64,000 nt of DNA from contig NZ_CP060394.1 in the NCBI RefSeq assembly GCF_014274465.1, forward strand, positions 3,162,001 to 3,226,000, written 5' to 3'. A program made the translations under genes and the position numbers. Positions 43,126-63,015 of the stretch are shown in pieces; within the stretch, counting starts at the first letter, position 1; every line of letters starts with the position of its first letter. This DNA is from Alloacidobacterium dinghuense (lineage in GTDB: Bacteria > Acidobacteriota > Terriglobia > Terriglobales > Acidobacteriaceae). Below the pieces are notes generated by a model, which was not told the origin of the DNA, did not search any database, and worked only from the letters and a program-made list of their open reading frames with translations.

Positions 43126-46100
43126 CTAGAAATTGATCTTGGCTGAGAGTTGCGCGATGCGAGGCGTGTTGGCGCCCGTAATGCTGCCGAATCCTCCCGA
43201 ACCCACTGCCGTGACTGGACTGTTTAGATTGGTGTGGTTCAGCAGATTGAAGTATTCCGCTCTGAACTCAAAGTTGCCATCCCCTTTGAGCGGGAAGGAA
43301 CGCACCAGGCCGGCATCCCAATCAAAGTAGCCAGGTCCCCGGAACGCGCCTTTGGTTACGTTGCCGAAGTTACCTGTCGCAGGCAACGCGAACACTGAGG
43401 GATCGAAATAGTTCTTGCAGACAGCACTCGCTTTGCAGGCTCCTGCACCATAGGGCTGGCGGCCATTCCATTGGGCGCGATCCTGAAGTAATCCGGTTTG
43501 CGAGATATCCGAGCCAGCGGTGATGGTAAGGGGCGCTCCGCTCTGGATTTGGAAGATGCCTGTGCTGCGCCAACCATTCACGATGGCGCGCATGATCGAG
43601 TTCCCTTCTGAAAGCCGGGGGAACTGCCATACATACGACGCTGAGAAGACGTTTTGCCGGTCGAAATCGGAAGGTCCTATATCAAGCGCTTTATAGTTGG
43701 GCATGTAAATGGAATATGCATATGGATTCCCCGGTCCATTGGAAGGCGTAGTGTTACCTGTCAGATAAGGCAGTGTGTCCATCGACTTCGAGAAGGTGTA
43801 GTTCGCCAGGATGCTGAAGCCTGCCGCCACTTTTTCCTGAATCGATGCCTGCAGAGAGTTATATGCGGAATTACCGCTCATGCTGGCTTCGCCGATGTTC
43901 GTATATCCGGCGAAATACCGACGCTGGTCCGTACTTAACTTGCTGCCTGGAATGTAGGTTGCCGGGTTCAATTGGTCGTCGACGAATAAGTGGCTCGCGT
44001 GTGCTCCTACATAGGCGAGTCTTGTTGTCATGTTATTGGTCACCTGCTGCTCGAGAGTGACGTTCCAGGCATACGTCACAGGAACCTGAAAGTCTCCAGA
44101 AGGGTCGAAGGTGTTCGCTTGAACGGGAGTTGGAAACACGACATTCTTAGGCGGCGGCACTGGCGCCGGAAATGGATTGTTGATTCCTTCATATGGGTTG
44201 CTGAATGGCCCTACAGGGTTTGTTAGAGATACCGACAACGAAAACGGACTGATCTCAGAAGGAATGCTGTTCATGATAGCGGGCTGACGCGTGTCATAAA
44301 ACATGCCCGCACCGCCGCGAAGACTCAGCTTGCCATTGCCCATTACGTCCCACGCAAATCCTACGCGGGGCATGAAGTTTTTGAACGATGATCGGACGCC
44401 TTGTTCCGGAACGCCCGTGTCGCCGGGAAACAGTAGGCCTGGAGGCGCGTTGGTGTAAACAGTCGAGGTGCGGCCTGCGGCGTAAGCGTCGGGATTGAAC
44501 TGCTCTACCCGATGAAACAACTCACTCCACGGCAGGAAAGGCTCATACCGGATACCGTAATTCAGGGTGAACCGCCGCGTCAGGTGCCAGCTGTCCTGAG
44601 CATAAAATCCATAGAACTGATTACGCGCGTTGTAATACTGACCCGCCCCTTGATTAAAGGTATAGAGGTATCCAAGCAGGAAGCTGGCGAGGGCATAGTT
44701 CGTGTTATTGGAATTGAATGCGAAGGTGCCAGGCTCGTTGAACTCGTTGTTGAGATCGACCTTGCTGATTTCCGCATGTACGCCAAAGGCCAGGTTGTGA
44801 TTTCCCTTCACCCAATGGAAGTCGTCGGCGAGTATGTAGTTATTGCGCTGAAACTCGGCAAAGGCGCTGTCGCCGAAGGTGAAGAATCCTGTGGCTGCAA
44901 TGCCAACGATCGCTTTCTGTGCAGGCTGATAGATATTTACGCCGAAGTCTGCCACGCTCGGTGAATTGGACAACGGACCGCGCTCCGACACCTCGCGTGA
45001 GTAATTGACGATAAGTGAATTGAGTATGTTGGGGGTGAAGACATGCGTTTCTGACGCTAGTGCGCTTTGCACCCTGATGTTGGAATGGCTCGCATATGTG
45101 AGCAGATTGGAGGAATTCAGAACGCCTGCGTTTGAGAAGTCATTCTGGTAGTAGTGAAGCGTGATATGATCCTTCGATCTAAAGTCCTGGTCTCCGCGGA
45201 CAAGGATCTCGTCAAAGTTCTGTGCAAGAGGATTCTGATAAAAGACGGAACCGCTTCCGCCGATACTCGGAAGATCCTTCATGAGCGCCACCGAAGCGGG
45301 ATCAAATGTGGACGGATCGATGAAGTTGTTTGGGTAAGGCGCTCCGGTGTGCGGATTCGTAATCTGCACGGCTTTGCCGAGTGGGTTGTCCGGATTCGAA
45401 GCACTGAGCATCGCGGAAAAGTCGCCAGCGAGGTTTGCCTGTGTCGGGATAAACGCATTCACGCCACCCTGCTGGTCACGGATGATCGTCTTCTGGTACC
45501 CCACAAAAAAGAAAGTGTGCTTGCTGTGAAACAGTGGAGGGATCGAAACCGGGCCACCGAAGGTGCCGCCAAACTGGTTGCGCTTCAAAGGGTCAACTGT
45601 TGAAGCGAAATAGTTCCGGGCATTAAAAACGCCGTTGCGAACGTATTCAAACAGATTTCCGTGATAGGCCTCGGTGCCCGACCTCGAGACGATGTTGACG
45701 ACGCCTCCCGCATTTTGGCCGTACTCGGCGTTGTAGTTGCTCGTCTGAACGCTGAATTCCTGTAGAGCATCGGGGAATGGGAACGGCTGATTGACATTGG
45801 TGTATTCGTCGATATTGTTGCCGCCATCGAACATATAGCTTGTATCTGCTGTTCGCGCGCCGTTTACAGATACAGTTACGGCGGCCGGAAACGTCTTGGT
45901 CACACCTTGATCAGCATTGTCGACAGGCCCGAGGACGACGCCTGCCACCAACTCAGTCAACTGTGCCGCATTTCGTCCGTTTAACGGCAGGTCGTTCACG
46001 CGGGTCCGATCAATCACTTGAGACAGTGTCCCGGTAGTCGTATCTACCTGAACGGCGTTCGCTGAGACTGTGACCGTCTGCGAAGCTTGCCCTACCTGCA

Positions 46101-46446
46101 GGACAACGTTCACCGTTAACGATTGATCCGCCTGAAGGACGATGCCCTTCTGCTGATAATCCTTGAAACCAGTGGCGACGACTCCGAGCGAATAGCCGGC
46201 AGGCGGCAGAGACGGAAAGAGATACACTCCGCTGTCGTTCGTTTTGACTACCGTTGTTGTGCCGGTGCCGATCTGGGATACGGTGATCGCGGCGGATCCA
46301 ATGACCGCCCCGGTGCTATCGGTCACAGTTCCTGACAAAGTAGCCAGTCCCTGACCGAAGCAGGCACCCGGAAGTCCTGCCAAAGCCAGAAAAACCACAA
46401 ACAGACAACTGTATCTTGCCACTTGCCGTTTCTGTGTACGTTCCAA
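43126..46446 (-). CDS. Oar-like TonB-dependent receptor, cluster A
   Basis: About 1106 residues from a TTG at 46446, which is preceded by GGGAGG at good spacing; an in-frame ATG at 46551 lies upstream of the promoter elements and cannot be the start of the mRNA-encoded protein if that promoter is real. Signal peptide YSCLFVVFLALAGLPGACFG, carboxypeptidase-regulatory repeat LSGTVTDSTGAVIGSAAITV, plug VNDLPLNGRNAAQLTELVAG and NGARTADTSYMFDGG, then a long barrel ending QLSAKINF. First gene of the cluster A operon; it should take up a large or scarce substrate for the exported amidohydrolase and oxidoreductase. Confidence 0.9.
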   Translation of the reverse strand: MERTQKRQVARYSCLFVVFLALAGLPGACFGQGLATLSGTVTDSTGAVIGSAAITVSQIGTGTTTVVKTNDSGVYLFPSLPPAGYSLGVVATGFKDYQQKGIVLQADQSLTVNVVLQVGQASQTVTVSANAVQVDTTTGTLSQVIDRTRVNDLPLNGRNAAQLTELVAGVVLGPVDNADQGVTKTFPAAVTVSVNGARTADTSYMFDGGNNIDEYTNVNQPFPFPDALQEFSVQTSNYNAEYGQNAGGVVNIVSRSGTEAYHGNLFEYVRNGVFNARNYFASTVDPLKRNQFGGTFGGPVSIPPLFHSKHTFFFVGYQKTIIRDQQGGVNAFIPTQANLAGDFSAMLSASNPDNPLGKAVQITNPHTGAPYPNNFIDPSTFDPASVALMKDLPSIGGSGSVFYQNPLAQNFDEILVRGDQDFRSKDHITLHYYQNDFSNAGVLNSSNLLTYASHSNIRVQSALASETHVFTPNILNSLIVNYSREVSERGPLSNSPSVADFGVNIYQPAQKAIVGIAATGFFTFGDSAFAEFQRNNYILADDFHWVKGNHNLAFGVHAEISKVDLNNEFNEPGTFAFNSNNTNYALASFLLGYLYTFNQGAGQYYNARNQFYGFYAQDSWHLTRRFTLNYGIRYEPFLPWSELFHRVEQFNPDAYAAGRTSTVYTNAPPGLLFPGDTGVPEQGVRSSFKNFMPRVGFAWDVMGNGKLSLRGGAGMFYDTRQPAIMNSIPSEISPFSLSVSLTNPVGPFSNPYEGINNPFPAPVPPPKNVVFPTPVQANTFDPSGDFQVPVTYAWNVTLEQQVTNNMTTRLAYVGAHASHLFVDDQLNPATYIPGSKLSTDQRRYFAGYTNIGEASMSGNSAYNSLQASIQEKVAAGFSILANYTFSKSMDTLPYLTGNTTPSNGPGNPYAYSIYMPNYKALDIGPSDFDRQNVFSASYVWQFPRLSEGNSIMRAIVNGWRSTGIFQIQSGAPLTITAGSDISQTGLLQDRAQWNGRQPYGAGACKASAVCKNYFDPSVFALPATGNFGNVTKGAFRGPGYFDWDAGLVRSFPLKGDGNFEFRAEYFNLLNHTNLNSPVTAVGSGGFGSITGANTPRIAQLSAKINF

Positions 46447-46511
46447 CTGGAGCCTCCCAGAGTTTTTCTTCCACCATCGCAACGAGTGGTCCGTTTTGGG
46501 GATGTACGTTT

Positions 46512-46539
46512 GATATACCTCACGGCCTATCGTGGTCAA
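46512..46539 (-). promoter_or_regulatory. Promoter of the cluster A operon
   Basis: On the minus strand TTGACC (46534-46539), a 16-bp spacer and TATATC (46512-46517) make a plausible sigma70-type promoter preceded by the motif ATTC. The start near 46505 gives a ~60-nt leader to the TTG at 46446. The same -35 context (ATTCTTGAC) is found at 51515 upstream of the second operon. Confidence 0.55.
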
Positions 46540-46544
46540 GAATA

Positions 46545-46588
46545 TTTTCACAACTTATGTGAAAATTTTCTTAATTAATAGTGAAAAT
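46545..46588. promoter_or_regulatory. TTTTCACA/TGTGAAAA regulator site, cluster A
   Basis: TTTTCACA-ACTTA-TGTGAAAA (46545-46565) is a perfect 8-bp inverted repeat, followed by GTGAAAAT again at 46581-46588, 22 bp after the first. The right arm is part of TGTGAAAATTTTCT, a 14-mer repeated exactly at 51539-51552. It lies between the divergent LacI gene and the cluster A operon. Confidence 0.6.
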
Positions 46589-46882: not shown

Positions 46883-47926
46883 ATGAAAAGCGCAAAGAGC
46901 AAAAAGTCGAAAGTCGGTCTACGGGAAATCGCGGCTGCTGCTGAGGTGAGTGTAGCTACCGTCTCCCGGGTTTTGAACGGAAACAGTCGCGTTGATCCGG
47001 CGATCCAGAAAGCCGTGCTCGGCTCAGCGGCTAAGCTGAAGATCGATCTCTCGCAAAGAAACCGGACAAAGGCGCTTGCTTTCCTGCTTAGCAACCGCGC
47101 CATGCTTCATCCCTTCCACTCACGTGTTTTAAGCGGCGCAGAATCATACTGTGCAGCACACGGATGGGACATGGTCTTCTTGTCTTTCCACTATTCTCGG
47201 AACGCCACTCGCGACGAATTGCATCTGCCTCGCGTGATCCAGCGGCGTGACATTATCCGTGCAGTCATCCTCGCCGGGACGAATTTCGCCAATCTTCTGG
47301 AACTGCTGGACTACAAGGGAATCCCCTACGTGGCGCTTGGCAACAATATCGTTGGAGAATCACAGGATTCAAAGAACGATCTGATCTTTTCTGATGATGG
47401 ACAGGGTGGCTACGATATGACCCGCTATCTCCTCACGCTGGGCCATCGCGACATCTGGTTTGTCGGTAATATTCGTTTGCCCTGGTTCGCCCGCTGCTTC
47501 TCTGGCTACAAGGGCGCAATGGAGGAGAGCGATCTGCAGGCGCGCCACAGCAGCATCGATTCGGAAGACGATGCGGAAGCGGGATATCTCGGAACAAAAT
47601 CCGTGCTGGCTCGCGGAGAACCTGTGACCGCCATCTTCGCTGGCAACGACTCGACTGCACATGGCGTTTATAAAGCGATCAGAGATAGCGGCCTGAGCAT
47701 CCCGGACAACATCAGCGTCGTGGGATGTGATGATACGGTGGGTGCCTGGCTTTTTCCCGGCCTGACCACCATTCGAGAATTCCCTGAGCAATTGGGCAAG
47801 CAGATGGTAGAGCTAATGCTCAACCGCATTGCCCGACCGAACCTTGAGCCGCAACGAATCAAAATTCCTACGGAGCTGATAAAACGGGAGTCCTGCCGCG
47901 CCATTGCCGGCGCCATCCAATCCTGA
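46883..47926 (+). CDS. LacI-family transcriptional regulator
   Basis: A ~347-residue LacI regulator: HTH and hinge in VGLREIAAAAEVSVATVSRV and LNGNSRVDP, then a periplasmic-binding-like sugar domain with AVILAGTNFANLLELLDY, VIFAGNDSTAHGVYKAI-like TAIFAGNDSTAHGVYKAI and ISVVGCDDTVGAWLFPGLTT. The ATG at 46883 (MKSAKSKKSK) starts just before the HTH, so the 65-residue in-frame extension from 46688 is rejected. It sits between the two catabolic clusters and is divergent from cluster A; the shared 14-mer box makes it the prime candidate regulator of both operons. Confidence 0.9.
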   Translation: MKSAKSKKSKVGLREIAAAAEVSVATVSRVLNGNSRVDPAIQKAVLGSAAKLKIDLSQRNRTKALAFLLSNRAMLHPFHSRVLSGAESYCAAHGWDMVFLSFHYSRNATRDELHLPRVIQRRDIIRAVILAGTNFANLLELLDYKGIPYVALGNNIVGESQDSKNDLIFSDDGQGGYDMTRYLLTLGHRDIWFVGNIRLPWFARCFSGYKGAMEESDLQARHSSIDSEDDAEAGYLGTKSVLARGEPVTAIFAGNDSTAHGVYKAIRDSGLSIPDNISVVGCDDTVGAWLFPGLTTIREFPEQLGKQMVELMLNRIARPNLEPQRIKIPTELIKRESCRAIAGAIQS

Positions 47927-51697: not shown

Positions 51698-54600
51698 TTA
51701 GAAAGTAAATTTGGCAGCCAACTGAATGCCTCTCGGGCCACCTCCACCGAGGAAGGGATTGCCCAAACCTACATCTCCGGTTGCGGTGATGGGGTAAAAT
51801 CCAGCGCTCACTTCACGCGAACCGCTCTGGGAGAAGCCGTTCGGTGCGGCGTCTGCAATAAATGCTGGCAGCAATGGGCTCGCGAAGTTTGGGTGATTCA
51901 CGATGTTGAAGAACTCCGCTCGCAACTGAAGCGAAAAACGCTCGGAGAAGTTGGTGTTCTTATAAACCGCAAAGTCCCAGTTCTTATAGGAAAGTCCCCG
52001 CAAAGAATCGCGACCCAGATTGCCGAAATGCCGCGTGCCGGGAACGCAGTCCTGCGCCTTGCCGGTGATGCCGTTGGTTAATGCATATTGTGTCAGCGAA
52101 CACGGGACTGCGAACGAAGAGAGGTCAAGGAATACAGCAGGGTTGGTCTTGTATTGCGGCCGCGCCACGATGTCGGGGCGATCGAACCCTTCGCCACTTC
52201 CGCTGTAGTCGTCTTCGTAGTTGTAGTTCAGGTTGAAGGGCTGGCCGTCCTGCAGCGTGACTGTGCTGTCAAGCCCCCAGCCATTGCGGAGTAGCTGCAT
52301 GCTTCCCTGCATCTTTGGCAACTCATAACCGAAGACCAAAGTAAAACGGTTGCGGACGTCGAAATTCGAGTCGGCATATTCGAGGTCCGGGCGCGTGCTG
52401 TTGTTTGGCTGGGAAGCATTCGGCACAAAGTCTTCACTGTCGCTCGCATTATCGAAGGAGTGGGACCAGTTGTAGTTGAGAATGGTGCTGATTCCGTGCC
52501 AGTCCGGGACGCGCAGATTGACCTGGAAGGAGTTGTAGTTGGAGTGAGAAGTGGACTCCTCCTGATTGATGTAGAACGCGCCGTAGGGGTTATTGAGGTA
52601 AACGCGGCTCGCGCTATTGAAGATGGGAATGCAGCCAGGCCCACCACCGGGATAGCAAGGAACACGGTTTCCGGTTATGGGGTTGGGATAGGTGTTCCCT
52701 TGTGCAAACGCAATATCGGTCGCGGTGATGGCAGCCTGACCAGGCTGATTGATATCGCGGAAGCGCAACAAACGGCGTCCCACAGAACCCACGTAGCCAA
52801 CCTGCACAAGAGCATAACTTCCAATCTTCTGCTGCACATTCAGGTTGTAGTTCATCATGTACGGCGTGCGAATATTACGATCCACCGAAAAGATGTCGCC
52901 GGAGGGAGTTGCTCCGGGTGCAGAGAACACGGGCGCACCGGAGACGATGGTACCTCCATTGGCAGCCACAGAGAAAATCGGCGCCGGGCCGAGCGGATTA
53001 TAGGCGGGGCCGGGATCGAAGGAACTGTTATACGGCAGGTGCGCGAGAAAGACATCTTGAGAATAGGCATCGAAGAAGACGCCGAATCCACTGCGAATAA
53101 CGGTCTGTCCCTTGCCGCGCGGATCGTACGAAAAGCTGACGCGAGGAGCAAAGTTTAGATAATCGGGCTTATAGAGGCTGCCCAATCCCGGTTGGCCCAC
53201 CTGGGTAAGGGTCAGAGTGCCTCCAGGGGGGTCGAATGCCGTGACGTTGCTCAGCAGGTCGTTCTTCTCGTGGAAGACACCGAAGTAGTCCCAGCGCATT
53301 CCGTAGTTCAAAGTCAGGGTCGGCATCACGCGGTAGCTGTCCTGGAAGTACAGACCGTGATTGTTCTGGTAGCTGTGGCGCTGCGAGTAGCCGAGCGATT
53401 GTGTGCCATTGGTTACGGTTCCAGCGAGAAAGTCAGCAAGCGTGTCAAATACAAGGCGTCCGCGAAAGTTCGTGCCCAGGAACTGCGTAATGCTGGTGCG
53501 CCGGAATTCGTAGCCGAATTTCAATGAGTGTTTTCCCGTGGTCCAGGAGAAGTTGTCGAAGCCCTGCCAGTTGGAGTCAAAGCGCTGACGCGGATCGGAC
53601 TTGCTGGCGCCAATCACCGAATAGCTGCCAACAGCGATCACAGGCAGTCCCTCGTCCGCTGAGCCGGTGCCAACATTCAGTCCGATGGAACTCGGATTAA
53701 AGCTACGATCCTCAGGAAAGAATCCTTCGGCAAATCGGTTCCATCCCATGCGGGCCTCGTTCACCTTGTTCGGCCCGAGGATCGAAACCAGCGAGATCGA
53801 GACTAGCTGTACGCGTGTGGGAGTGAATGTGTTGAATCCGGGGAGAATGCCACCGCCTGACAACGCCAGCGGAAAACTCTGCGTACTGTCGCCGTAAAAA
53901 TAGCGCCCGCTGAGCATGTTGCTCTGGTTGAAATTGTGATCGACCTTTGCGATGAGGCTGGTAATCAGATTGCTGGAGGGCGCAATCACCGCTGCATTGG
54001 GCGCGCTGCAGCCGGTTGGACCTGTGGTTACTCCGCTTAGGTTCGGAGTGGGCCATGGATTGCGGGCGAGGATCGCCGCAGTGACTGCATTGGTGACGCC
54101 GCCCAGACTGGCAATGTACGCGGGATCCGGAACACACGCCTGGCTCACCGTTCCGACGCTCTCGCGTTGACCTTCATAGTCGAAGAAGAAGAAGGTACGG
54201 TTGCGAATGATGGGGCCGCCGATTGACCCTCCGAACTGATTGTTGTGGAACGGCGCCTGCGTTTGTCCCCTGGGATTGAAGTAATTCCGCGCATCGAGAG
54301 CGTTGTTGCGGAAGTACTCCGCAGCCGTCCCGTGAAAATCATTTGTGCCGCTCTTGGTGACAATGTTGATGATGCCACCGGCGCTGCGTCCGTACTCGGG
54401 CTCGTAGTTCGAAAGCACCCGCAGTTCCGAGACGGCATCGATGGGCAGGATGGTCGCCGGCGCGCCGAAAACGCCGGGCTCATTGACGGCCGGGTCGTTG
54501 CGGTAGCCGTCGTTCATGTCGGTGCCGTCGAGCAGGAAATTGTTGGAACGCCCGCGAGCGCCATTTACGGAAAATGCGCCAAAAGAGCCAGGGGAATCAC

Positions 54601-55117
54601 TGATCTGATCGGGTGAGCCGGTGACTCCGGGCGAGAGATAGATGAGCTTAGTGTAGTCACGCCCATTTACGGGAAGATTCTTCACGTCCTGGGTGGTCAA
54701 AGTTGCGCCCAGCGTATTCGATGTGGTCTCAACCTGGAGAGCATTGGCTGATACGACGACTTCTTCCTTCAGGCCGCCAGTCTGCAGCGTGACGTTAAGA
54801 TTTACCTGACTTCCTACGGTCACTTCCAGTCCGTCAGCCTGGTACGGGTTGAATCCCGTCATGCTTACGGTGATGCTGTAGCGTCCAACGGGAAGTTCCG
54901 GTACTGTAAACGCGCCGTCGCTATTGCTCTGCGTCGTTCGTTCGATGCCGGTATCCATGTTCTTCACTGAGATGGGAGCACCGGGAATCACCGCTCCGGA
55001 CGCATCAGTCACAGTGCCAAGCAGAGTGCCCCGAAATGTTTGAGCAATGAGGACAGATGTGCAGGATAGAGTTGCGAGAGGCAACAGGAGGATGAGAAGC
55101 CGCAAGACCGAACGCAT
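51698..55117 (-). CDS. Oar-like TonB-dependent receptor, cluster B
   Basis: A 1139-residue receptor: signal peptide MRSVLRLLILLLPLATLSCT with a Cys at position 19, carboxypeptidase-regulatory repeat LLGTVTDASGAVIPGAPISV, plug VKNLPVNGRDYTKLIYLSPG, SFGAFSVNGARGRSNNFLLD and LLDGTDMNDG, then a long barrel ending GIQLAAKFTF. AAAGGGGACGCC precedes the ATG. It is longer than and separate from the cluster A receptor, so the two clusters likely differ in substrate. It lies 293 bp upstream of the amidohydrolase gene. Confidence 0.9.
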   Translation of the reverse strand: MRSVLRLLILLLPLATLSCTSVLIAQTFRGTLLGTVTDASGAVIPGAPISVKNMDTGIERTTQSNSDGAFTVPELPVGRYSITVSMTGFNPYQADGLEVTVGSQVNLNVTLQTGGLKEEVVVSANALQVETTSNTLGATLTTQDVKNLPVNGRDYTKLIYLSPGVTGSPDQISDSPGSFGAFSVNGARGRSNNFLLDGTDMNDGYRNDPAVNEPGVFGAPATILPIDAVSELRVLSNYEPEYGRSAGGIINIVTKSGTNDFHGTAAEYFRNNALDARNYFNPRGQTQAPFHNNQFGGSIGGPIIRNRTFFFFDYEGQRESVGTVSQACVPDPAYIASLGGVTNAVTAAILARNPWPTPNLSGVTTGPTGCSAPNAAVIAPSSNLITSLIAKVDHNFNQSNMLSGRYFYGDSTQSFPLALSGGGILPGFNTFTPTRVQLVSISLVSILGPNKVNEARMGWNRFAEGFFPEDRSFNPSSIGLNVGTGSADEGLPVIAVGSYSVIGASKSDPRQRFDSNWQGFDNFSWTTGKHSLKFGYEFRRTSITQFLGTNFRGRLVFDTLADFLAGTVTNGTQSLGYSQRHSYQNNHGLYFQDSYRVMPTLTLNYGMRWDYFGVFHEKNDLLSNVTAFDPPGGTLTLTQVGQPGLGSLYKPDYLNFAPRVSFSYDPRGKGQTVIRSGFGVFFDAYSQDVFLAHLPYNSSFDPGPAYNPLGPAPIFSVAANGGTIVSGAPVFSAPGATPSGDIFSVDRNIRTPYMMNYNLNVQQKIGSYALVQVGYVGSVGRRLLRFRDINQPGQAAITATDIAFAQGNTYPNPITGNRVPCYPGGGPGCIPIFNSASRVYLNNPYGAFYINQEESTSHSNYNSFQVNLRVPDWHGISTILNYNWSHSFDNASDSEDFVPNASQPNNSTRPDLEYADSNFDVRNRFTLVFGYELPKMQGSMQLLRNGWGLDSTVTLQDGQPFNLNYNYEDDYSGSGEGFDRPDIVARPQYKTNPAVFLDLSSFAVPCSLTQYALTNGITGKAQDCVPGTRHFGNLGRDSLRGLSYKNWDFAVYKNTNFSERFSLQLRAEFFNIVNHPNFASPLLPAFIADAAPNGFSQSGSREVSAGFYPITATGDVGLGNPFLGGGGPRGIQLAAKFTF

Positions 55118-58328: not shown

Positions 58329-59375
58329 ATGTGTTCTCAGGAAAAGGCAGACCGCCAGCCGCTGCCCATTTCGGAGATTGAAGTTCTCTGGATCACTGCG
58401 GGTCTGGGTTGCGATGGGGACACGATCGCCGCCACAGCCGCTACGCAGCCAAGCATTGAGGACATTGTTCTTGGAGCGCTTCCTTGGATTCCCAAGGTAC
58501 ACTTTCACAATCCATTTCTTGCTTCTGAAGTTGGAGACGACTTCATGGCGCATTTTCACGCCGCTGCTGAAGGCAAATCAAGGCCCTTCATTCTCGTGCT
58601 GGAAGGCTCTGTCCCCAACGAGAAGAATAAGAAGGTGGGATATTGGGCATCGTTCGGAACTGACCGTACAACGGGCCAGCCTATTACCACATGCGAATGG
58701 ATTGACCGACTTGCGCCGAAAGCATGGGCAATCATCGCGGCAGGCACTTGCGCAACGTATGGCGGAATCCATGCGATGGAAGGCAATCCAACCGGATGCA
58801 TGGGCCTGCCTGATTATCTTGGCTGGAAATGGCGCTCGATCGCGGGCATTCCCATTGTTTGCGTTCCAGGCTGCCCTGTTCAACCCGACAATTTCATGGA
58901 GACGCTGCTCTATCTGCTGACCATGGCCGCCGGTCGCGCTCCCATCATTCCGCTCGATGAATGTCTGCGACCCGCATGGCTCTTTGGCAGCACGTTGCAT
59001 GAAGGCTGCGATCGGGGCGGATACTATGAGCAGGCGCAGTTTGCGGAAGAGTACGGATCGCCGCTCTGCATCGTGAAGCTGGGCTGCTGGGGTCCGGTGG
59101 TGCAATGCAATGTGGGTAAGCGCGGCTGGATGGGTGGCATCGGCGGCTGCCCCAACGTTGGAGGCATATGCATCGGGTGCACGATGCCAGGGTTTCCGGA
59201 CAAGTTCATGCCGTTTATGAATCAGCCGCCCGGTTCCTTACTTTCGTCGGCCGCGGTGCAAACCTACGGACGCGCCATCCACGCCCTTCGGCGGTTCACC
59301 CAGGCGTCACTCAATAAAGAACCGATCTGGCGACAGAAGATGTCTTCGTCAGGCAACCAGAATGAAATGGCGTAA
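58329..59375 (+). CDS. Group 1h [NiFe]-hydrogenase small subunit, copy 1 (no adjacent large subunit)
   Basis: A 348-residue small subunit. The N-terminal part has TAGLGCDGDTIAATAATQP: in the Ralstonia group 1h enzyme the Cys and Asp of this GCDGD bind the proximal 4Fe-4S cluster (3Cys1Asp). All other cluster cysteines are in place: AAGTCATYGGIHAMEG, CVPGCPVQPDNFMETL, LHEGCDRGGYYE, LCIVKLGCWGPVVQCN, GGCPNVGGICIGCTMPGFPD. No Tat signal, as in this group. It is not followed by a large-subunit gene but by a kinase gene overlapping its last 14 bp. By eye about two-thirds identical to the copy at 61951. Confidence 0.9.
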   Translation: MCSQEKADRQPLPISEIEVLWITAGLGCDGDTIAATAATQPSIEDIVLGALPWIPKVHFHNPFLASEVGDDFMAHFHAAAEGKSRPFILVLEGSVPNEKNKKVGYWASFGTDRTTGQPITTCEWIDRLAPKAWAIIAAGTCATYGGIHAMEGNPTGCMGLPDYLGWKWRSIAGIPIVCVPGCPVQPDNFMETLLYLLTMAAGRAPIIPLDECLRPAWLFGSTLHEGCDRGGYYEQAQFAEEYGSPLCIVKLGCWGPVVQCNVGKRGWMGGIGGCPNVGGICIGCTMPGFPDKFMPFMNQPPGSLLSSAAVQTYGRAIHALRRFTQASLNKEPIWRQKMSSSGNQNEMA

Positions 59376-61020
59376 CTCTTCGATAGAGATGGAGGAAAAC
59401 GGCAAACGGTGCCGTCTAATCAACATGGCTTCTCCCGTCGAGAGGATCCGAGAGAAAGGCGCCCACTTATCGCAGTTTGCGGTTGCCGGAGACGAATTGA
59501 GAGAGATCGGTCAGGCGGAGGCCCTCCTCTTCGATCTAGCCAGTGTTTTTAATAATTCGTCCGCAGGTTCGGGGTCAATCGGAGAATATTGCGTTTCGGA
59601 TGCGCCGAGTGCGGATGCGCAAACGCCGGACCTCGAAGCTAAATACCGTGCCCTGCTGGAACAAATGCCGGCAGTCGTGTTCATGGTTTATCTCGATCGA
59701 GGAATCAGTGAGGCTTACGTTAGCCCGCAGATCGAAGCGGCCCTTGGCTATTCGCGGGAAGAATGGCTGGAAGATCCCATTCGCTGGTATCAGCATATCC
59801 ACCCGGACGACAAACAGCGGTGGAGTGTGGAAGCCGCGGAAATGTTCCTAACGGGCAAGCCGCTGCGATCCTCATATCGTGTCATTGCGCGAGACGGACG
59901 GGTGATCTGGTTCCATTGCGATGCCCGTATGGTGCGCCGCGATGATGGACGTCCGTGGTTTATTCACGGCGTGGCATTCGACATATCGGATCTCAAACGA
60001 GTTGAAGAAAAGCTCGAGGAAGAGCGTAACTTTGTAACCACGATTCTGGACACGGTGGGAGCGCTGGTCGTCGTCCTAGATGACGCGGGACGTATCCTGC
60101 GGTTTAATCCTGCGTGTGAACTCACCACCGGTTATTCGATTGAAGAGGTGCAGGGCAAATGCATATGGGACCTGTTTCTCCTTCCCGAAGAAGCAGCCCG
60201 TTTCAGGACCATGTTTGAAGTGCTGCGCGCTGATCTGCTCACTCAGGATTACCAGAGCACTTGGATGACAAAGCATGGGGAGCAGCGATTGATCGCGTGG
60301 ACGAGCACATTGCTGCACGGAAACGGCGGCACCTCAAACTATGTCATCGCTACGGGAATCGATATCACGGAACGGAAGCAATTGGAAAAAGCGATTCTCG
60401 ACATCAGCGCGCGCGAACAGCGCCGCATTGGCCAGGACTTGCATGATGGTTTGGGGCAGCATCTCACCGGAATCGCTTTTATGGCCAAGGTTCATGAGGC
60501 GAGACTGGCGGAGCACAAGCGGTCGGAAACAGAAGATGCCACAAAGATTGTGAAGCTTGTTAATGAAGCCATACACAAAACACGCGAACTCGCCCGCGGT
60601 TTGCTTCCGGTAGTCTCCGATTCACACGGGCTCATGTCTGCTTTGCAAGTTTGGACGGCAGAAGTAGAGGATTTATTTGGAGTATCATGCCGCTTTCAGT
60701 GCGAATCGCCCGTCCTGATTCACGACGTGACGACAGCTACGCACCTATATCACATTGCGCAGGAGGCCGTGAACAACGCAATGAAGCACGGAGAGGCTCA
60801 GAATATCGTGATTGAATTGACGGCTGACCAGGAACGAGGCAGACTCGCCGTTCGCGACGACGGCAAAGGCATTGCGGATGTATCTGAACGAGCCCAGGGA
60901 ATGGGACGACATATTATGCGCTACAGAGCTGGAATGGTCGGAGGAGCGCTTGAGATACAACGAGTCCCACCGCGCGGGACCGTGGTGATCTGTAGTTTTC
61001 CGATGAAAGATTGCGGATAG
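59362..61020 (+). CDS. Soluble PAS-domain sensor histidine kinase (HisKA_3 type)
   Basis: About 552 residues, with no transmembrane helix. Two PAS domains (about 90-210, with YVSPQIEAALGYSREEWLED, and 215-340, with FNPACELTTGYSIEEVQGK), then HisKA_3 dimerisation domain (EQRRIGQDLHDGLGQHLTGI, phospho-His in DLHDG) and HATPase (YHIAQEAVNNAMKHGEA, VRDDGKGIAD). It overlaps the small-subunit stop by 14 bp (ATG 59362; alternatives 59389, 59426), so the two are translationally coupled. No heme or FeS motif is visible. It likely senses H2 or redox state and signals to the next gene's regulator. Confidence 0.9.
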   Translation: MKWRNSSIEMEENGKRCRLINMASPVERIREKGAHLSQFAVAGDELREIGQAEALLFDLASVFNNSSAGSGSIGEYCVSDAPSADAQTPDLEAKYRALLEQMPAVVFMVYLDRGISEAYVSPQIEAALGYSREEWLEDPIRWYQHIHPDDKQRWSVEAAEMFLTGKPLRSSYRVIARDGRVIWFHCDARMVRRDDGRPWFIHGVAFDISDLKRVEEKLEEERNFVTTILDTVGALVVVLDDAGRILRFNPACELTTGYSIEEVQGKCIWDLFLLPEEAARFRTMFEVLRADLLTQDYQSTWMTKHGEQRLIAWTSTLLHGNGGTSNYVIATGIDITERKQLEKAILDISAREQRRIGQDLHDGLGQHLTGIAFMAKVHEARLAEHKRSETEDATKIVKLVNEAIHKTRELARGLLPVVSDSHGLMSALQVWTAEVEDLFGVSCRFQCESPVLIHDVTTATHLYHIAQEAVNNAMKHGEAQNIVIELTADQERGRLAVRDDGKGIADVSERAQGMGRHIMRYRAGMVGGALEIQRVPPRGTVVICSFPMKDCG

Positions 61021-61027
61021 CGTTCGC

Positions 61028-61699
61028 ATGACAGAGATCGCCAAATCAAAACGCTCTGCGCGGAAGAAAGTCTTCATCGTGGACGACCATCCCCTGCTGC
61101 GCCAGGGCTTGGCGCTCATGATCAATCGCGAAAACGATCTGATGGTTTGCGCAGAGGCCGAAGAAGCGCAGGCAGTGATGAAAGCAATCGCCGCAGACAA
61201 GCCGGATATCTTGATTGTTGATATCTCGCTCAATGGTCCAGATGGATTGGATCTTCTGAAAAATATCCGTGCGCTCTATCCAGATCTCCCCGTACTCATC
61301 CTCTCGATGCATGATGAGTCCATCTACGCGGAGCGCGCACTACGGGCTCGCGCGAACGGCTACATTATGAAGCAAGAAGCTACGGAGAAGGTTCTCGTGG
61401 CTGTAAGGCGCATTCTCGGGGGAGAAATCTATCTGAGTGATCGAATGGCCAGCAAGCTGCTCCATCAGTACATCAGTGGAGCTTCAACAGATTTGGATTC
61501 ACAACTCTCCGCTCTCTCCGATCGCGAATTAGAAGTATTCCGCCTTATTGGTGAGGGTCGCGGGACTCGCCAGATTGCAGAAAAGCTGCACCTCAGCATA
61601 AAAACGGTTGAAACCTATCAGGCACATATCAAGGACAAGCTTTCGCTTCGCAGCGGACGCGAACTTGTACAGCATGCCATTCAATCGAAGCTCCGATAG
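61028..61699 (+). CDS. NarL/FixJ-type response regulator
   Basis: A 223-residue response regulator: receiver domain KVFIVDDHPLLRQGLALMIN with acceptor Asp in DILIVDISLNGPDGLDLL, Lys in GYIMKQEATEK, and a LuxR-type HTH LSDRELEVFRLIGEGRGTRQ with LHLSIKTVETYQAHI. It starts 7 bp after the PAS kinase stop and is its natural partner. Probable target: the downstream hydrogenase genes, whose promoter would lie in the 251-bp gap before 61951. Confidence 0.93.
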   Translation: MTEIAKSKRSARKKVFIVDDHPLLRQGLALMINRENDLMVCAEAEEAQAVMKAIAADKPDILIVDISLNGPDGLDLLKNIRALYPDLPVLILSMHDESIYAERALRARANGYIMKQEATEKVLVAVRRILGGEIYLSDRMASKLLHQYISGASTDLDSQLSALSDRELEVFRLIGEGRGTRQIAEKLHLSIKTVETYQAHIKDKLSLRSGRELVQHAIQSKLR

Positions 61700-61950
61700 C
61701 GACCTGGAAACTTCTACATTTGCATTGCTCGACTTATCCGAAGCTATTCAGTCGAGCTTTGTGCCAACTCCCTCAGGGAATCCCTTATGCCAAAACGAGT
61801 ATTCGGGACGAAGACAAAATAGGATCAGTCCCGCTTGTAAATCGAATCCTGCCTCTGTTCCGATGACATGTTCGCCCGTGACGGCGGCGTTCACTCACTC
61901 CTCCGCCATCCTCGTAATAGCAAGCACTTGCAAAAAAGGAGAAGCAGATC

Positions 61951-63015
61951 ATGACAGCGAAACAAGCACCTCATGGCCGCGTTACTCAGAAAGCGCCGGC
62001 CGTGGCAGAAGTGCACATTGTCTGGATGACTGCCGGCTTGGGCTGCGATGGAGATTCGGTCTCAATCACGGCGGCTACGCAGCCCAGTATAGAAGATGTT
62101 TTGCTCGGCGCCATTCCCGGTCTGCCGAAGGTGCATCTGCACAATCCTGTTCTCGCCTATGAGGTTGGCGATGACTTCCTGAAGTACTGGTACCTGGCGG
62201 AGGAAGGCAAACTCGATCCGTTTGTGCTTGTCGTCGAGGGGTCTATTCCAAACGAAAAGATAAAAAAAGAAGGCTATTGGGCCGCGTTAGGAACCAACCC
62301 AGACACAGGGCAGCCAATTACAACGAATGAGTGGATCAATCGTCTTGCTCCGAAAGCACTGGCCGTAATTGGCTGTGGAACGTGCGCAACATATGGCGGC
62401 ATTCATGCAATGGAAGGTAATCCAACGGGCTGCATGGGGCTGGCGGACTATCTGGGATGGGACTGGAAATCGAAGGCGGGTTTGCCGATTGTGAATGTTC
62501 CCGGCTGCCCTGTTCAGCCGGATAATTTCATGGAGACGGTTCTGTACTTGCTATATCAGGTGGCCGGCTTGGCTCCTATGATCCCGCTCGATGATCAACT
62601 CAGGCCTACGTGGCTGTTCGGCAGGACCGTACACGAAGGCTGCGACCGTGCCGGATATTACGAAGGCGGAGACTTTGCGACTTCATACGGCTCACCCAAA
62701 TGCATCGTGAAGTTGGGATGCTGGGGCCCCGTCGTGAACTGCAACGTGCCCAAGCGCGGCTGGATGGCAGGGCTCGGAGGCTGTCCTAACGTGGGCGGAA
62801 TTTGTATCGGCTGCACAATGCCCGGATTCCCTGATAAATTCATGCCCTTCATGGATGAGCCTCCAGGCGCAAAGCTATCGAGCACGGCCATTGGCGCTTA
62901 TGGCAAAGGAATTCGGGCTCTGCGAGCCCTTACCAACGAAACCGTGAACAAAGAGCCGAAGTGGCGACATCCACGTGCTCAGCTGACAACCGGATATCAT
63001 CCGAGATCCTATTAA
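61951..63015 (+). CDS. Group 1h [NiFe]-hydrogenase small subunit, copy 2 (partner of the large subunit)
   Basis: A 354-residue small subunit with the same cluster ligands as copy 1: MTAGLGCDGDSVSITAATQP, GCGTCATYGGIHAMEGNPTG, NVPGCPVQPDNFMETV, VHEGCDRAGYYEGGDF, IVKLGCWGPVVNCNVP, GGCPNVGGICIGCTMPG. AAAAGGAGAAG precedes the ATG. It is 38 bp before the large-subunit gene, so it forms the catalytic dimer. Group 1h enzymes are oxygen-tolerant, high-affinity H2 oxidisers used to scavenge atmospheric H2 during starvation. Confidence 0.93.
   Translation: MTAKQAPHGRVTQKAPAVAEVHIVWMTAGLGCDGDSVSITAATQPSIEDVLLGAIPGLPKVHLHNPVLAYEVGDDFLKYWYLAEEGKLDPFVLVVEGSIPNEKIKKEGYWAALGTNPDTGQPITTNEWINRLAPKALAVIGCGTCATYGGIHAMEGNPTGCMGLADYLGWDWKSKAGLPIVNVPGCPVQPDNFMETVLYLLYQVAGLAPMIPLDDQLRPTWLFGRTVHEGCDRAGYYEGGDFATSYGSPKCIVKLGCWGPVVNCNVPKRGWMAGLGGCPNVGGICIGCTMPGFPDKFMPFMDEPPGAKLSSTAIGAYGKGIRALRALTNETVNKEPKWRHPRAQLTTGYHPRSY

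Follow-up and report, generated by a model that had tools for sequence, protein, structure and literature searches.

A kinase-linked orphan small subunit of group 1h hydrogenase as a candidate sensory partner in Acidobacteriota

Introduction

Group 1h [NiFe]-hydrogenases scavenge atmospheric H2 in soil. This study concerns a 64,000-nucleotide stretch of the Alloacidobacterium dinghuense genome (hereafter the window; NZ_CP060394.1, positions 3,162,001 to 3,226,000), in which an orphan hydrogenase small-subunit gene (S1) is followed by genes for a histidine kinase (HK) and a response regulator (RR), and then by the small-subunit (S2, hhyS) and large-subunit (L, hhyL) genes of a group 1h enzyme. 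Among the closest described systems, HoxBC-HoxJ-HoxA of Cupriavidus necator, built on a regulatory [NiFe]-hydrogenase of group 2b (HoxBC/HupUV), likewise combines a PAS kinase and a response regulator with a small subunit that is soluble and carries three Fe-S clusters, and its logic, control of energy-converting hydrogenase genes, resembles the one proposed here (PMC5665086). Kinase-linked [FeFe]-hydrogenases of HydDB group C1 are also hydrogenase-family proteins proposed to sense H2 via a kinase, but they belong to an unrelated metal-site family and are set apart from S1 by the HydDB table description (PMC5037454).

Within the Acidobacteriota, an additional hhyS has been reported about 3,600 bp upstream in KBS 83 and Edaphobacter aggregans, as in Pyrinomonas methylaliphatogenes, and its transcript was detected in KBS 83; acidobacterial expression depends on carbon limitation, with the transcription factors unnamed (PMC8027828). 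That copy matches S1 by position. The main text of the earlier study presents it as a homolog whose expression was tested, contains neither of the terms histidine kinase and two-component, and gives no kinase, regulator, DNA site or sensory role (PMC8027828). The KBS 83 and E. aggregans loci (L052 and L037) have the order S1-HK-RR-S2-L, and their two small-subunit starts are about 3.6-3.7 kb apart. No description of the S1-kinase link was found in the open-access papers searched. A sequence-only reading of the window had known of no description of the arrangement; this holds for the kinase link and not for the extra hhyS copy, which is already published, so that it is the signalling unit that appears not to have been described previously.

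Locus organization

The main features, all on the forward strand, are as follows.

58329..59375, +, S1, orphan kinase-linked group 1h hydrogenase small subunit (hhyS homolog), 348 amino acids; from open reading frame, Pfam, structure match and trees
58860..58862, +, codon of S1 Cys178, four residues N-terminal to the proximal-cluster ligand Cys182
59214..59339, +, S1 C-terminal 42 aligned residues (296-337), candidate kinase-docking surface
59362..61020, +, HK, soluble two-PAS HisKA_3-type histidine kinase, 552 amino acids; start uncertain (59362, 59389 or 59425)
59611..60015, +, first PAS module of HK (residues 84-218), conserved and common to all S1-linked kinases
61028..61699, +, RR, NarL-type response regulator (receiver and GerE), 223 amino acids
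61773..61788, +, palindrome TCAGGGAATCCCTTAT, candidate RR binding site, 178 bp 5' of S2
61951..63015, +, S2 (hhyS), small subunit of the scavenging group 1h hydrogenase, 354 amino acids
63054..64000, +, L (hhyL), large subunit, continuing beyond the window end; 600 amino acids, complete in L004:11054-12856

Pfam places Oxidored_q6 and NiFe_hyd_SSU_C on both S1 and S2, two PAS domains, HisKA_3 and HATPase_c on HK, and Response_reg and GerE on RR. HK and RR are thus a NarL-type two-component pair, a HisKA_3 and HATPase_c kinase adjoining a receiver-GerE regulator, and no transmembrane segment was found in HK, its hydrophobicity being too low for a membrane helix. The sequence-only reading had this right, as it did the absence of a large-subunit gene next to S1 and the position of S2. 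S2 directly precedes hhyL, as expected of an HhyS gene; S1 does not, since the kinase comes after it. The 14-bp overlap that the sequence-only reading reported between S1 and HK exists if the kinase starts at 59362 and hinges on the choice among the three in-frame ATGs; it is not conserved, because the kinase frame of some relatives (L036, L048 and L041, for example) begins only past the S1 stop. The same gene order in many independent assemblies, isolates among them, excludes an assembly artefact.

The locus is not a member of group 2b, because every part tested is non-orthologous to HoxBC-HoxJ-HoxA. HoxB is 32% identical to S1 and 33% to S2, and S1 falls within group 1h and is not a HoxB ortholog. 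HoxJ scores about 0 bits against the profile of the PAS module, so the kinase PAS is not of HoxJ type, and HoxA is NtrC-type and annotated as sigma-54 dependent whereas RR is NarL-type. Unlike HoxBC, which includes a dedicated large subunit, S1 has none of its own. Group 2b large subunits lack a C-terminal extension past the last metal-binding motif, whereas the sole large subunit of this genome is of group 1h and keeps the extension MYLGNGKVLETHHSPMFGLQQKP after DPCLPCGVH, as do its relatives. The parallel with HoxBC and HoxJ drawn in the sequence-only reading therefore survives in logic and not in orthology.

S1 as a separate lineage of group 1h small subunits

Among solved structures, S1 comes closest to 5aa5_A, the actinobacterial-type small subunit of a group 1h enzyme, at 563 bits over residues 13-337, with the next at 159 bits. 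S1 has the same fold family and ligand set and no twin-arginine (Tat) leader, no Tat motif being detected in its sequence. All 12 ligand-type residues are present (C28, D31, C141, C182, H224, C227, C247, C253, C260, C274, C281 and C284), which agrees with the earlier claim that every cluster ligand is kept and gives S1 the ligand set of HhyS, including the CxxD proximal motif.

Over residues 13-337, S1 and S2 are 71% identical, and they fall into separate lineages when analysed with other group 1h sequences. A tree of 102 small subunits splits genes followed by a kinase from those followed by L almost completely (8 label changes, against a shuffled mean of 37). With outgroups added, the S1 group comprises 44 rows with a Shimodaira-Hasegawa-like approximate likelihood ratio test (SH-aLRT) value of 94; the enzymatic group, of 48 rows, has a value of 98 and takes in actinobacterial, chloroflexal and proteobacterial enzymes, 5aa5_A falling in this L-linked lineage and S1 in the kinase-linked one. 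The outgroups HoxB and HoxK sit on saturated branches and are too distant, so the root is unreliable and the age order of the lineages is not set. The S1 lineage occurs in several phyla. Fourteen positions characteristically distinguish the two types; position 178, for example, is Cys in 39/45 kinase-linked subunits and Asn in 46/51 L-linked ones.

S1 is under strong purifying selection, with nonsynonymous divergence (dN) of 0.02-0.08 against synonymous divergence (dS) of 0.5-2.9, the higher dS values being near saturation. Segments around the clusters are as conserved in S1 as in S2. The last 42 aligned residues are better conserved in S1 (0.37 bits, versus 0.80 in S2), whereas the remainder of S1 is less conserved (0.50 versus 0.27 bits). 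The small-subunit C-terminus matters in HoxB too, where replacing the 50-residue C-terminal extension prevents the double-dimer form (PMC5665086). By these sequence criteria, S1 is an intact small subunit of group 1h hydrogenase and forms a separate, constrained lineage.

Annotation of group 1h small subunits is itself uneven. The same misannotation recurs in three plasmid records (L186, L187 and L189, from Methylocystis, Mycobacterium and Streptomyces), where genes annotated as 'hydrogenase expression protein HypE' match hydrogenase small subunits and precede a large subunit.

Coupling of S1 to one kinase PAS module

Genes 3' of S1 encode kinases built on HisKA_3, on HisKA or as receiver-containing hybrids, which have one module in common, HK residues 84-218. 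Module identity among S1-linked kinases is 59-88% in Acidobacteriota, and relatives in Planctomycetota, Verrucomicrobiota and Myxococcota assemblies reach 44-63%. At L054, L062, L065, L066, L070 and L074-L077 the module shares 59-71% identity with that of the window, against 20-31% or no match at all for the catalytic core. Mere co-regulation would not select one PAS module, which counts against S1 being a plain co-regulated neighbour of the kinase.

Among 396 acidobacterial genomes, the module exceeds 190 bits in 11, and these are the same 11 that carry S1 (in the eleventh, G277, the S1 type was assigned because its sole small subunit, 70% identical, adjoins the module); the next-best PAS scores 115 bits. 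Group 1h hhyL is present in 11/11 of these genomes and in five others that have no S1. The genomes are related and the counts are not independent; the independent part lies in the core swaps and relocations. In KBS 96, S1 and HK are still together at a distance of 2.7 Mb from S2-L. One genome (G288; loci L195 on contig C15 and L062 on contig C18) has two kinases with the S1-type module: a hybrid kinase adjoins S1, and the second, with its regulator, adjoins S2-L without S1. A search for a PAS cofactor through solved homologues returned generic PAS matches only.

Regulator and DNA element at the S2-L promoter

The intergenic region between RR and S2 carries the palindrome TCRGGGAATCCCYKAT (61773-61788). 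A GGGAATCCC palindrome with at most two mismatches occurs in 25/28 S2 promoters located behind an RR of at least 60% identity. The remaining three are L053, with a broken S2 frame and a mis-set start, and L061 and L102, with degenerate palindromes at the usual distance. The palindrome was found at 0/42 S1 promoters, 0/3 promoters behind a divergent RR and 0/19 small-subunit loci without a nearby RR. Three loci classed as lacking an RR do have it: at L047 and L069 the RR is further upstream and the palindrome has kept its place at S2; the L087 locus begins where its contig does. In the 6.27-Mb genome of the window, the only mismatch-free match is the one at 61773, and in 34 further genomes close matches lie mostly just 5' of S2 where S1 is carried, with a few elsewhere. 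A similar palindrome at 47313, with three mismatches and inside a LacI-type gene, was taken as chance.

At the divergent-RR loci (L054, L074, L076, L194, L195, L196 and L197) the S2 promoter has TACGTAG repeats, often inside AAATACGTAGGTYTRCG; 17/18 overlapping matches in these loci fall in the S2 promoter, compared with three across 38 kb of sequence upstream of other small-subunit genes. A change of regulator type is accompanied by a change of DNA element, which is what a cognate pair should show. The S2-L promoter is thus very likely the target of RR, which would act there by binding the palindrome.

Large subunit and proposed mechanism

The genome, 6.27 Mb in one contig, has a single [NiFe] large subunit, so that no second large-subunit gene elsewhere could partner S1. 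A weak PF00374 match at 1.7259 Mb reads by eye as NuoD of complex I. Two-subunit genomes that were checked have one intact L per two small subunits. Other arrangements of small subunit, kinase and L also occur. In two Verrucomicrobiota- and Myxococcota-labelled assemblies, the only small subunit found has 11/14 S1-type residues and sits in an S-kinase-L operon (L059:2414-7028 and L063:7630-12417), possibly a dedicated group 1h sensor. In Planctomycetota, S-L is followed by a kinase with the PAS module (L083:9950-15163 and L078:9317-17482), an order perhaps nearer to the ancestral arrangement. Several of these single-S and S-L-kinase loci are metagenome assemblies, in which a missing second copy is weak evidence.

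We propose that S1, HK and RR work together as a signalling unit dedicated to the control of hhyS2-hhyL transcription. S1 would dock the shared HhyL, most likely as a soluble S1-L heterodimer that reacts with H2, and the redox or conformational state of the S1 Fe-S chain would be passed, perhaps by direct contact, to the first PAS module of HK. HK would then set the phosphorylation of RR, which under this control would bind the palindrome 5' of S2; the sign of the response, like H2 as its signal, is something we infer. Lineage-wide coupling to the PAS module and the regulator-linked promoter element support the sensory role, which was one of two roles suggested by the sequence-only reading. 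The system is real and conserved, and it is probably sensory. We hold the S1-HK-RR-promoter circuit, with its signal left open, with good confidence. The whole model, in which S1-HhyL reads H2 and the HK-RR switch acts on hhyS2-hhyL, seems to us on the whole a fairly likely account, and S1 probably pairs with the single HhyL to sense H2. More tentative is sensing by subunit exchange, in which L would be common to catalytic S2 (for respiration) and sensory S1 (for the kinase) and the enzyme's own active site would measure H2 for its own switch; this idea may well be right and may well be wrong.

Alternative explanations

Several observations weigh against this proposal. D31 is replaced by Glu in 5/45 S1-type sequences, and residues 38-87 vary more in S1 than in S2, so that some large-subunit contacts could be lost. 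Mirror-tree analysis gave partial correlations with the PAS module of 0.34 for S1 and 0.40 for S2, and hence no specific S1-PAS signal. The S1 transcript of E. aggregans was undetected under the conditions tested (PMC8027828). The output step is also not uniform, because S1-type genomes with HisKA or hybrid kinases are without the palindrome. The relaxation of residues 38-87, the lack at most loci of a large-subunit gene belonging to S1, and the link of acidobacterial hhyL induction to carbon limitation (PMC8027828), which could be a redox cue, would suit an S1 that acts without a large subunit, its Fe-S clusters alone sensing redox state, O2 or electron pressure on behalf of the kinase in the same RR-promoter circuit. 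We regard this as unlikely, because S1 never occurs without hhyL in the 396 genomes, the segments around its clusters are conserved as in S2, and at L059 and L063 the S1-type protein is the sole small subunit beside L.

The other role suggested by the sequence-only reading was that of an alternative electron-transfer subunit, with L pairing with S1 or S2 for different acceptors and the kinase and regulator as co-regulated neighbours. Retention of all Fe-S ligands, the two small subunits per large subunit and an S1-clade subunit beside L without the kinase module (L072, an exception to the S1-module coupling) agree with it; yet it leaves the kinase coupling unexplained, a coupling that survives relocation and kinase-core swaps and is exclusive across the 396 genomes, and we consider it improbable. 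S1 might instead be a decoy or assembly gauge: by capturing free HhyL or maturation factors, it would tell the kinase about the assembly state of the enzyme and not about H2. The co-occurrence data are the same for this case and the controlled operon encodes L itself, but three intact Fe-S clusters under such constraint would not be needed, and its likelihood appears very low. That S1 arose from S2 by recent duplication and has no function, as its orphan position adjoining the operon might suggest, is hardly credible given a separate lineage in several phyla, dN/dS far below 1 and fixed ligands; recent duplication is ruled out by the selection data and the trees. A signalling unit in which S1 reads H2 together with HhyL is the explanation we prefer.

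Other features of the region

On the 3' side of L lie genes for a NifU-like protein, DUF5947, DUF6084, a 373-amino-acid protein and a HycI-type protease, beyond which more open reading frames resemble hyp maturation genes by eye. Scans for sigma-70 promoters and terminators gave matches no commoner than chance. A reported natural fusion of S1 and kinase, a 1128-amino-acid frame in G211, was not seen on translating the locus, where S1 and HK are separate frames. Elsewhere in the window, two large genes on the minus strand (51698-55117 and 43126-46551) resemble, by eye, TonB-dependent receptors with a carboxypeptidase-like N-terminus.

Implications

The sensor, kinase, regulator and DNA site of group 1h control in soil Acidobacteria now each have a candidate. 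Counts of hhyS, or quantitative PCR of this gene, can mix sensor and enzyme copies. If the proposal is true, Acidobacteriota and, in variant form, some Planctomycetota and Verrucomicrobiota would possess a second kind of [NiFe] H2 sensor, one that is based on group 1h and works by subunit exchange. These findings suggest that scavenging bacteria may gauge H2 or redox state through a spare subunit of the enzyme itself.

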